64,000 nt of DNA from Marinobacter subterrani (lineage in GTDB: Bacteria; Pseudomonadota; Gammaproteobacteria; Pseudomonadales; Oleiphilaceae), in contig NZ_LFBU01000001.1 in assembly GCF_001045555.1 (NCBI RefSeq), positions 558,001-622,000 of the forward strand. The letters run 5' to 3'. A program made the position numbers and the translations under genes. Shown here piece after piece: positions 31,542-49,024 of the stretch. Positions within the stretch are counted from its first letter, which is position 1. The number at the start of each line of letters is the position of its first letter. The notes under the pieces were generated by a model that was not told the DNA's origin, made no database searches, and saw only the letters and a list, made by a program, of their open reading frames with translations.

Positions 31542-31553
31542 CAAGTGACTGTG
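31542..31553. repeat. left inversion breakpoint word
   Basis: CAAGTGACTGTG, whose exact reverse complement CACAGTCACTTG is at 49013-49024. The two copies lie at the broken ends of the hsdR halves. The match stops at both ends of the 12 bases. Confidence 0.75.
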
Positions 31554-32367
31554 ACCAGAGCTGCTCGAAGTAGGCCCGGATCTTCGGGGGTTTATTCTGG
31601 AACAGGGCGTTCTTGTCCGACGCGGACAAAGGCTGGTTCTTGATGCCCTGAACATGCCGGTCATCGAACTCCTCGTCCGTCCACTTCGACCAGAACTTCA
31701 GGGGAGTGTGGGTGGTACCGTACCGGCCGTCGTTGCGACTGATAGCGAACAGCAGTTGGGCAAAGGCATAGAGGTAGGGGACTTCATCATTTTTCTGGTT
31801 GCGGAGGTGCTGACTGATGCCTTCCTCAACCATGTTCTTGTTGGGATTGCCGGAGGCCGCCTTCTTCGCCTCGATCACCGCCAGGGGAATGCCATTAACG
31901 AATGCGACCACATCTGGCCGGCGCGTTTGGGTACCCTGGGTGGACAGAACGTCCATCTCTTCCGTGACATGAAACTCATTGTTGTCCAGGTTTTGCCAGT
32001 CGATCAGATGGATCGTGGGCTGGGCCTTCTTGCCGCCGATGAACTCGGTCACGGTAATACCCAGGGTCAGCATGTCGTATACGGATTGGTTGGCCTCCAT
32101 CAGGCCCTGGGCCATGGATGGTGTCGTAACCTCTCGAATCACTTGATCTACGGCCTGCTCGGACAACGGATACCACTGCCCCTTAAATTCGAACTTCCGC
32201 TGACGCAACACCCGCTCCAGCACCGGCTTCATCACCACCTCCCGCTGGCTGCCTCGCAGAGCCATGCACTCTGTCGCCGGCAAAAACGTCCAGCCCAAGT
32301 TGATCAGGGTCGCCAGGGCCGGGATGTGGCTGGAATGCTGCTCATTCCCTTGAGGGGTGGTGTTCAT
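31554..32367 (-). pseudogene. hsdR: type I restriction subunit HsdR, N-terminal nuclease part
   Basis: First ~271 residues of HsdR. The HSDR_N nuclease domain is present with catalytic PD-(D/E)xK residues in RRPDVVAFVNGIPLAVIEAKKA, followed by YLYAFAQLLFAISRN and PPKIRAYFEQLW. Homology stops at about 31550; the frame then runs through cassette sequence to a stop at 31468. The motor half is at 49022-51478 on the opposite strand. ATG 32367 overlaps the DUF262 gene stop (ATGA), so it was the next gene of the operon. Without the motor this half should not support type I restriction. Confidence 0.85.
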
Positions 32368-34220
32368 ACTGGCTCCATATCGACCAAGCTCTCGGGCCAG
32401 ATACGCTCACAGATCATCCGGTACAGCTCCTGCCGCGCTTCAATGTCTGCTTTTTTGAATGTGTCGTGCGGCTTAAAAGGCAGGTTCAACACCTTTCTCA
32501 GTTTGAGAAAATTAGGGTTGTTGTCGTAGGCAAGTGGGCAAAGTGATTTCACCAAGAGGTTTTCTTTGATGTAGTGCGCCTTTTTATTCTCATAAGGCTG
32601 ATCGCCATACGATTGATTGGTCCCTCGGGGCAAAAGAACAAGACCGCCGAGTCGGTTACGGTAGTTCTGGAACTCGTGTTCTTGCTCAAACTCGTCTTGA
32701 TGGCGGGCAAACTTATCCGCCCATATGTGCTCAACTTCAAAAGGCTTGCCGCTAACTGGCTCATAGTAGGTCACGAAGCTGCTACTCATGCCTGCCTGTT
32801 GCTCACACCATGCGGTCATGCGGGCTAGCAAAAACTTCACAAAACGTCGGTTCTGGCCGTGCCAGCGGAAACTCTCCATGTTGGAAAACGACTCGCTCAT
32901 GTCCTGTAACTTTTGACCCAGTAATGCTCTCAGACCGGGCAAATCCTGGCCTCGAATGTCTTTTACCAGGCTGTACATGGTGTAGCGGATTGAGCTGGCC
33001 GAAAAGTTGCGGAAATTGACTGAACGGCGAACCACGAAAGCCTCAATGTAGGCGGCCACTGTATCAATTTTTTGAACAACGGTTTCATCACTGTCTTGTG
33101 GGCTAAGCGCAGCAAGCATCAGTGGAAAGCTCAGTGTTGGGGCAATACCCCACCGAGAGATATAGAACACATGCTCCAACCCAGGAACTAGGTCATACTC
33201 TGCGTCCAAAATGCGAATGTAGGTCTTGTAGTAAAAGCGGAATTCATCCTGAACGAACCGCTCAAAAGAGTTACCGTCAGTGGCATCCAGACCAATTTTA
33301 GAAAGGTTGTCGCGCACCCAACTGTGAAAACGGGTGCCGATTTTCTCGAAGTCCTCGTTTTTGGAACCGGCCTTACCAGGCCGAATGCTTTCAGCATAAC
33401 GCGCTCTTAACCACGACTGGAAAAAGCGTTGATCCTCATCCTTGTCATAGGATTTGAGCTCAAGCATGGCCTGTTTCCAGAAATCGTTGGATTTCTTGCG
33501 CTTCTCTGTGCTTTCGAATCGCGACAAGATATACCCCTTTAGCATTTCAGAAGGGGTCAGGTTCAGGCCGCGGTCGTTCATCGTCTCGAAGATGGTGTAG
33601 GCGTTTTCATCGGAGTAGGCGATGATTTCGACCATAATCACGTTATACCTGAGCCAATCTACAAAGAACGGAAAAGCATCGTTTTTCAGTTCATCGGGGA
33701 ACGCCCTCTCGATGTCCTGATACCGCTCAGCCATATTGCGAGTCGATTCATCGTCGGTGTCTTCTGGGGCATACTCACCGTTATTGAACAATCTCTCCAG
33801 ACACGGAATACGCTCCTCAACCGTAATGTTGAAGGACTTGCTGCCGCGTAGCTCCGAGAAAATCATAGGCTCGATCTTCTCATTAAACGGGAGCTCCTTC
33901 TGGAGGTTGTTCAGATAAATCAAAAACAGCGTTAACGAGGTTAAACGCTGCTGGCCGTCGATAATGCTGCGTTTGCCGTCTTTGCTGCTGACAACGAAGG
34001 GGCCAAGGTAGTAGTTATTATATTGTTCCCCCTGTTCACGCTTGTCCCCAGGGGTGTATTCGCTAAGGAAAGCTGATGTTAAGTCGGTAACCAGAACTTC
34101 GATGTGTTTCTCGCCCCAGCTGTACTCCCGCTGAAAATAATCGACGGTATACTTTTGTTCGTTCAGCACATCAAAAAGGTTGCGATGCCGGGCCTCAATT
34201 TTGTTTTCTAGCTTGCTCAT
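32364..34220 (-). CDS. GmrSD-like nuclease (DUF262 + DUF1524)
   Basis: 618-residue protein. The N-terminal DUF262 (GmrS-like, ParB/Srx fold) domain has QREYSWG near residue 30 and D88-GQQR-LTSL, which in this family binds and hydrolyses nucleotide. The C-terminal DUF1524 (GmrD-like, HNH-type) domain has FEVEHIWADK (catalytic His), then YRNRLGGLVLLPRGTNQSYGDQPY. GmrSD-type enzymes cut modified (for example glucosylated) phage DNA. It sits between hsdS and hsdR with ATGA overlaps on both sides, so it is an integral operon member, probably covering phages whose modified DNA escapes the type I enzyme. Specificity is not known. Confidence 0.88.
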   Translation of the reverse strand: MSKLENKIEARHRNLFDVLNEQKYTVDYFQREYSWGEKHIEVLVTDLTSAFLSEYTPGDKREQGEQYNNYYLGPFVVSSKDGKRSIIDGQQRLTSLTLFLIYLNNLQKELPFNEKIEPMIFSELRGSKSFNITVEERIPCLERLFNNGEYAPEDTDDESTRNMAERYQDIERAFPDELKNDAFPFFVDWLRYNVIMVEIIAYSDENAYTIFETMNDRGLNLTPSEMLKGYILSRFESTEKRKKSNDFWKQAMLELKSYDKDEDQRFFQSWLRARYAESIRPGKAGSKNEDFEKIGTRFHSWVRDNLSKIGLDATDGNSFERFVQDEFRFYYKTYIRILDAEYDLVPGLEHVFYISRWGIAPTLSFPLMLAALSPQDSDETVVQKIDTVAAYIEAFVVRRSVNFRNFSASSIRYTMYSLVKDIRGQDLPGLRALLGQKLQDMSESFSNMESFRWHGQNRRFVKFLLARMTAWCEQQAGMSSSFVTYYEPVSGKPFEVEHIWADKFARHQDEFEQEHEFQNYRNRLGGLVLLPRGTNQSYGDQPYENKKAHYIKENLLVKSLCPLAYDNNPNFLKLRKVLNLPFKPHDTFKKADIEARQELYRMICERIWPESLVDMEPV

Positions 34221-48042: not shown

Positions 48043-48996
48043 ATGAACACCACAGAAATCCAAACCTCACTGAATATCGGTGTCGACGTTGGTAAAGCCA
48101 ACCTTGATATCGCTCTCCATCCTTCCGGACAATTTTATTCAATACCCAATAGCGAAGCCCACATTCATCGGTTCGTGAAAATCCTCAAGAACTACGACAT
48201 TGAACGAATCGTGGTGGAAGCCACAGGGCGCCATGAGCATGCCCTGGTTCAGGCCTGCAATCAGGCAGGCTTACCGATCATAGTCGTCAATCCCACCAGT
48301 GTCAGACGTTACGCTCAGGCCATTGGCGTGCTCGCCAAAACCGATCGTATTGATGCCCAGGTGATTGCCAAATATGCCGCCACACTGAAGCCGGAATTCA
48401 GACCCATCCCGGACAAAACCTCCCAGAAGATTAGAGACTTACTAGCCAGGCGGGCACAGCTTCTGGAAATGTCCACCATGGAGAAAAACCGTCTCCAGAT
48501 CATGCCGAAGCCCCTTCACCGATCCATTAAAAGCTTACTCAAAATGCTCCAGAGTCAGATTGAAACAATCACCCGACAGATCGAGCAGGAAGTGGCCAAA
48601 GTGGATCACTGGCGTACCAAAATGGACATCATGACCAGTGTGCCCGGTGTCGGAAAAGTGCTCGCCTACACCTTCCTCAGCGAGCTACCGGAACTCGGTT
48701 CTCTGAACCGAAAGGAGATCGCCGCACTGGTCGGTGTCGCACCCATCAATCGAGACAGCGGCAAGCTCAATGGCAAACGGAGGATACGAGGTGGGCGCCC
48801 CAGAGTCCGAACCGTGATGTTCATGGCCATGCTCTCATCCATCCAATGCAATCCTGTTTTCAAACGCTTTTACGAACGCTTGAAGGCACAGGGGAAGATT
48901 CCAAAAGTGGCCGTCGTTGCCTGCATGCGAAAGATGATTGTGGTACTCAATACGATGGTCAAAAACCAGGAATCGTGGCGTGAAAATATGGCTTAA
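48043..48996 (+). CDS. IS110-family transposase
   Basis: 317-residue RNA-guided recombinase. The N-terminal RuvC-like DEDD domain has [14 protein letters not shown] (first Asp), [13 protein letters not shown] (Glu) and [15 protein letters not shown] (two Asp). The C-terminal Transposase_20 domain has [34 protein letters not shown] and [16 protein letters not shown]. Length and motifs are normal, so it is probably intact. It lies between the reverse cassette cluster and the C-terminal half of hsdR. Confidence 0.9.
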
Positions 48997-49012
48997 TATA
49001 TGTGATTGACAC

Positions 49013-49024
49013 CACAGTCACTTG
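49013..49024. repeat. right inversion breakpoint word
   Basis: CACAGTCACTTG, exact reverse complement of 31542-31553. It falls at the first bases of the HsdR C-terminal half, whose frame here reads HSHLPTEQ; in the N-terminal half the same bases are read one base out of register. Confidence 0.75.

Follow-up and report, generated by a model that had tools for sequence, protein, structure and literature searches.

The window analysed here, a 64-kb stretch of the Marinobacter subterrani genome (4.45 Mb in two contigs), carries a type I restriction-modification (R-M) operon, integron cassettes with their attC sites and an insertion sequence (IS) of the IS110 family (Table 1). The operon is complete in that hsdM, hsdS and hsdR are all present, with hsdR in two pieces. 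A Pfam domain search located HSDR_N in the open reading frame at 31468-32367 (minus strand) and SWI2_SNF2, ResIII and T1R_D3-like domains in the one at 49022-51478 (plus strand). The two fragments cover positions 1-271 and 276-1094 of the 1099-position PADLOC model PDLC03041. Both results agree with a preliminary description of this DNA, which had placed the two halves of HsdR here in opposite orientation. No second full-length match to hsdR was found in the genome by a DNA search, which a diverged HsdR would escape. The frames of hsdM, hsdS and an additional half-length hsdS are open.

Both breaks carry the same 12 bases in inverted orientation, as had been described: CAAGTGACTGTG at 31542-31553 and CACAGTCACTTG at 49013-49024. 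The repeat alone is unremarkable, since 96 exact, overlapping 12-mer inverted pairs occur between 20 and 56 kb. It stands out because one copy forms the end of the IS110 element and because the missing half of the attC interrupted by this element lies at position 31541. The sequence at 49013-49024 is the right end of the IS (CACAGTCA) with its CT core and not a free-standing inverted repeat, and the breakpoint lies at this core, as is expected of an inversion catalysed by an IS110 recombinase. The preliminary description was right about the inversion and the disruption of HsdR but overlooked that an IS110 element terminates at the right breakpoint. A chance 12-bp repeat does not suffice as the whole explanation, given the IS end and the restoration of the attC.

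That restoration had been missed in the preliminary description. When the flip is undone, positions 47839 and 31543 are rejoined to give TAACAAGTCACGG, while the neighbouring intact attC at 46.95 kb reads TAACAAATCACGG. In our judgement this is the strongest sign of inversion, as it is independent of hsdR. Re-inversion also turns the attC cassettes at 46.3-47.84 kb into the direction of the main array (22-28 kb), together with the repeat at 46326, a 12-mer common to 26176 and 27844; both effects had been foreseen. A duplex-energy test of the attC was uninformative (z of -1.1 for the re-inverted and -0.9 for the present arrangement, with 14 other rows ranging from -5.8 to 1.0).

The ancestral order can be read from relatives. 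We inspected 19 loci at the site, among which six pairs were one record in two collections, leaving 13 distinct loci, six of them from Marinobacter. Six genomes of the genus share their hsdR sequence, across the 400 bases compared, with six named Marinobacter records. The N and C parts of hsdR are directly contiguous in 13 out of 13, so relatives with an uninterrupted gene, which the preliminary description had proposed to look for, do exist. In M. gelidimuriae the gene is contiguous at the site and carries a separate frameshift at a more downstream position. In Larsenimonas (L050) the genes run hsdS-hsdM-hsdS-DUF262-hsdR-ygjP in a single direction, which is the order (hsdS'-hsdM-hsdS-DUF262-hsdR-ygjP) that undoing the flip had been predicted to give. 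M. gelidimuriae, on a shorter contig, has hsdS-DUF262-hsdR-ygjP; the remaining relatives have no DUF262 match at E 1e-8, or a contig end cuts the locus. The ygjP gene follows hsdR in 12 of the 13 distinct relatives, and the sequence of L055 stops before that point.

We reject two ancestrally separate genes on account of the contiguity in all 13 distinct loci. A search of a large database, restricted to the length range of the N half, gave 155 proteins at E <= 1e-3; some of the best 120 come from short contigs or carry the label partial. Marinobacter sp. EhC06 (L043 = L024) has the closest hsdR, with DNA identity of 93% for the C part and 88% for the N part. In bins of 100 nt, identity is 87-93% along the N part except for the last bin (701-800, 77%); the C part begins with bins of 90, 85 and 90%. 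A chimera of two hsdR alleles is not favoured, as there is no clear step in identity to EhC06 at the break, although this comparison does not account for the drop to 77% beside it. Taken as a whole, the comparison shows that an ancestor had a continuous hsd operon and an IS110-family element in reversed orientation within an attC of the adjoining cassette array. The segment from the right end and core of the IS to a site in hsdR was later inverted, so that the attC halves and the hsdR halves now stand at opposite ends. The 17.5-kb inversion is well supported by the gene order of relatives, the restored attC and the position of the breakpoint at the IS end. An assembly artefact at the repeated IS is rejected; a misjoin driven by the repeat fails for the left joint, because that joint contains no IS.

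The element has the hallmarks of its family. Its recombinase contains PF01548 and PF02371, as the IS110 group requires, and among solved structures it matches only ISCro4 and IS621 at E <= 0.001. The layout is likewise that of IS110, with 203 nt of non-coding sequence before the recombinase gene and only 24 nt from the gene to the right core. The segment 47838-49024 is found at three more places in the genome, 99.9-100% identical and in one case without the last two bases, and these three other full copies occupy attC-type sites. Among the 17 right ends compared, a subset of the matches (four full copies from this genome, 12 from other genomes, of which two are incomplete, and one fragment from this genome), 16 continue into attC-type TGTTA, GGTTA or GTTA, and the window copy alone continues into hsdR. 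The right core is CT in 17 of 17 and the left core in 12 of 15 (TT in L031 and L038, AT in L035). The element thus has a fixed target type with a CT core, to which the window copy is the exception. A plasmid search returned no record with one place covering 80% of the query.

The 203 nt upstream of the recombinase gene are predicted to encode a bridge RNA. Mean column identity of this region is 94% in 12 distinct copies, with a variable patch where the left target guide is expected. In the predicted fold, the left and right target guides lie in opposite unpaired arms of one internal loop. The fold is weakly supported by its energy (z -2.12; 3 of 200 shuffles as good); compensatory changes were seen in none of its 59 pairs, and Rfam gave no hits in 20-56 kb.

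The RNA guide covaries with the target. In the 12 distinct IS sequences, a right target guide with CAAG or CCAG goes with a right target of CTTG or CTGG, respectively. The three copies with AACCAG (L034, L037, L039) all sit at CT-GG-TTA (3/3). The other nine have AACAAG, and for the eight relatives among them the right end reads CT-TG-TTA (8/8), as it does in the own copies L007 and L009. The own copy L008 (C1:242680-243864) deviates: its right flank is CT-GTTATG, which puts CT-GTTA one base out of register with the guide and with the other own copies. With the own IS counted once as CT-TG, the chance of such a partition of guides and targets is 1/220. The donor guide, ACAGTCA, is invariant in all 12.

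This donor guide matches both the right end of the IS and the only CACAGTC of EhC06 hsdR, exactly at the breakpoint. In the two strands of this 3,282-nt gene the heptamer occurs once; this single occurrence coincides with the break, is aligned in register with the IS right end and exceeds in length every other match to that end among 6,548 positions. The N joint observed in the window agrees with the donor guide at 7 of 7 positions and the EhC06 sequence at 6 of 7.

We propose that, in the ancestor with the reversed IS110-family element in an attC next to the continuous hsd operon, the inversion was made by the IS110 recombinase with its bridge RNA. The donor loop (ACAGTCA) would have paired with the single CACAGTC of hsdR as a pseudo-left-donor, and the right attC half, TGTTA, beside the IS right end would have been bound by the target loop (TAACAAG). 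Exchange at the CT core would then have joined CACAGTC(A)-CT of hsdR to TGTTAGGG, a type of joint that is normal for donor-left plus target-right, and the reciprocal joint would connect the IS right end-CT to TGCC of hsdR. The outcome would be an inversion because the recombining sites lay on opposite strands. The segment from the IS right end and core to the hsdR site would thereby be turned around, separating the attC halves as well as the hsdR halves, with about 2 nt lost relative to EhC06. HsdR would probably be left non-functional, with HsdM and HsdS still able to methylate: from the anatomy of the locus we predict that restriction has probably been lost and the methylation genes kept. 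On balance, the sequences lead us to favour this use of hsdR as a pseudo-donor by the recombinase and its bridge RNA. There is about an even chance that the locus is a natural fossil of bridge-RNA misdirection, in which the element's own right end plus an attC half served as target and a host gene as pseudo-donor via a 7-nt match to the donor guide, so that 17.5 kb were inverted and restriction was disarmed with methylation left in place. The locus looks like the product of a one-off event with an imperfect joint and is not a new system.

Several points weigh against this proposal. The score for matches to the right end was devised after the joint was known, and two other places in the window equal or surpass the hsdR match to the right end, with 8 nt matched at 8916 (minus) and 7 nt at 7870 (plus). 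In the chosen register, hsdR agrees with the left target guide at 0 of 7 positions, and its right side with the right guide at 3 of 7; because the donor guide matches at 7/7 and 6/7, hsdR looks like a donor and not a target. Finally, the joint is not exact. EhC06 reads TGG TCA CAG TCC GTC ATG CCT ACG at the site, whereas the window has TGG TCA CAG TCA CT followed by TGTTAGGG at the N joint and the right end-CT followed by TGCCTACGG at the C joint. The exchange may have been less than perfectly conservative, since EhC06 has no CT core here and is 2 nt longer; the difference may stem from repair or from a deletion that was already present.

The same two joints would result if a second IS110 copy had entered hsdR, the inverted 1.2-kb copies had recombined homologously and the copy at the left joint had later been excised. 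Recombination between copies is possible, given four near-identical full copies in the genome, and scarless excision of IS110 elements is reported in the excerpted text of PMC11208160. This route requires three events, has left no trace of an IS at the left joint, has to use a gene that fits the target guides poorly and still needs the loss of 2 nt; for ISEc11, an IS1111 element, the excerpts of PMC11187229 describe the rejoined target as undetected after circle formation. We regard it as quite unlikely. We also consider it unlikely that the segment was inverted illegitimately through the 7-bp microhomology, possibly from a break after a failed IS excision and with the bridge RNA not guiding. 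CACAGTC is indeed shared, and a net loss of 2 nt against EhC06 is the kind of imperfection that end-joining leaves. If the IS played no part, however, nothing would place the breakpoint at its core, which is covered by 20 of the 47,763 overlapping seven-base inverted pairs in 20-56 kb. If the break arose at the end of the IS, the element is still the cause, and this version is hard to tell from an exchange guided by the bridge RNA.

It is very improbable that an inversion between an empty attC and hsdR, for instance through an integron integrase, preceded the arrival of the IS110 element and that the element entered the hybrid junction afterwards. The genome does contain two integron integrase genes that exceed the family cut-off and have no stops (C1:222329-223264 and 3299161-3300087), and the attC-hsdR hybrid, CCGTGACTTGCC, would retain part of the target. 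This order of events leaves the in-register 7-bp match of hsdR and the right end to chance (4^-7, about 6e-5), and a single attC cut cannot supply the ACTTG found at both joints. We give equally little credence to a reversible phase switch, as raised in the preliminary description, in which the segment flips back through the 12-bp inverted repeats and restores HsdR. Type I R-M loci with invertible hsdS are known from the literature excerpts used here. In this locus, however, the repeat is the end of an IS, and rejoining through the 12 bp would not restore the gene: the joint is 2 nt short of EhC06, and hsdR would be out of frame after simple re-inversion. The frame mismatch between the halves that had been pointed out is real, as 13 of 13 distinct relatives run through the site and EhC06 has 2 nt more there. 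Moreover, among 124 genomes of the genus searched, the left joint is absent from the six other genomes with a long match to hsdR-N.

Table 1. Features of the split hsdR locus and the IS110 element (window coordinates)
Feature	Position	Strand	Basis
Orphan right attC half TG-TTAGGGC, partner of the IS110-interrupted attC at 47.8 kb	31535..31543	-	
Left joint, reading CACAGTCACTTG on the minus strand: A-CT-TG after hsdR CACAGTC	31542..31553	-	
hsdR 5' part, HSDR_N nuclease domain, ends CACAGTC at the break	31547..32367	-	Domain search, comparison with relatives
DUF262/GmrSD-like gene of the hsd operon	32364..34220	-	Domain search, gene order in relatives
hsdS, full-length specificity subunit	34217..35491	-	
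hsdM, type I methyltransferase	35481..37052	-	
Half-length hsdS, upstream of hsdM	36991..37623	-	Similar gene upstream of hsdM in several relatives
Intact attC, same type as the IS-interrupted one (part used as search seed)	46945..46995	-	
Remaining half of the IS110-interrupted attC, up to core CT (outer limit approximate)	47790..47839	-	
IS110-family element with flanking CT cores (47838-47839, 49021-49022)	47838..49022	+	
5' non-coding region, predicted bridge RNA	47840..48042	+	
Bridge RNA guides: left target, right target, right donor, left donor	about 47919-47930, 47949-47957, about 47975-47982, 47994-48000	+	Predicted
IS110 transposase/recombinase, 317 aa	48043..48996	+	DEDD_Tnp_IS110 + Transposase_20; related to IS621, ISCro4
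Right joint: CACAGTCA (IS right end) + CT core, followed by hsdR TG	49013..49024	+	
hsdR 3' part, motor domains	49023..51478	+	Domain search, comparison with relatives
ygjP-like gene for a metallopeptidase, at the end of the operon	51475..52254	+	Domain search, gene order in relatives

Further observations concern the surroundings of these features. The half-length hsdS is matched upstream of hsdM at 66-73% in L045, L046, L049, L050 and L051; because relatives also have one there, it may be a functional accessory part and not debris. The short attC type of 47.8 kb is also resembled at C1:1819661-1819717 (L012, 81%), and the other match (87%) corresponds to the adjacent attC of the window. Left flanks with TAAC at 68-74 nt were seen in 8 of the 14 IS110 copies tested and were missing in L039, L040, L008, L033, L034 (46 nt, short attC type) and L041; those of L039 and L040 may reflect further rearrangements or unusual attC sites. 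Both integron integrase genes lie near other IS110 copies. In the window, the match to an integrase at 18231-18377 is weak (47.8 bits against a cut-off of 265), and all 14 control genomes also gave weak matches; as it is so far below the cut-off, the window array may have no integrase of its own. At 37722-43645 (minus), three large genes stand in a row: two match Phage_integrase (473 and 591 aa), and the third (880 aa), like a 199-aa companion, matches no Pfam family at E 0.001. Presumably, this is a Tn554/RIT-type recombinase set. An IS21-type istA/istB element lies beside the left joint (about 28649-31290, minus), with 23-bp repeats at 31196-31287; its end occurs at five places in the genome, including the window.

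As far as the excerpts of PMC11208160 describe it, IS621 shares much with the window element: a sequence-related DEDD/serine recombinase of the bridge-RNA type, a CT core, a 5' non-coding RNA with target and donor loops, and inversion when sites are on opposite strands. The same text reports excision and inversion by pairs of donor and target, rare genomic inversions between insertion sites in experiments, and off-targets that sometimes resemble the donor. Insertion at one end of an attC with an element-encoded RNA guide is described in the excerpts of PMC11187229 for the IS1111 elements ISKpn4 and ISPst6; unlike in IS1111, where the RNA region is downstream of the recombinase gene, the long non-coding region of the window IS is upstream. 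What differs from IS621 is that the window element targets attC and that this would be a natural event, with a gene as pseudo-donor against an integrated IS end. Piv is a dedicated switch acting at fixed sites. The window event resembles it in that an IS110-related recombinase would have inverted DNA but, unlike Piv, looks one-off, with an imperfect joint; Piv is named as an IS110-related invertase in the excerpts of both PMC11208160 and PMC11187229. The phase-variable type I R-M loci of pneumococcus, as excerpted, likewise invert within the locus, but there the inversion of hsdS is reversible, whereas the window inversion cuts hsdR and leaves hsdS intact. Among the matches listed in a search of titles and abstract beginnings in open-licence PMC, we recognised no natural IS110 inversion that splits an R-M gene.

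IS110 recombinases can be programmed to invert DNA, and this locus bears on natural rearrangement by their RNAs. The pseudo-donor idea is directly testable, because the locus offers both joints, intact relatives, the guides and a heptamer that is unique in the gene. If it is true, hosts of IS110 elements would have predictable inversion hot spots wherever the donor-guide heptamer recurs on the right strand. The locus also illustrates one route by which a type I R-M system may lose its nuclease while its methylase genes stay.

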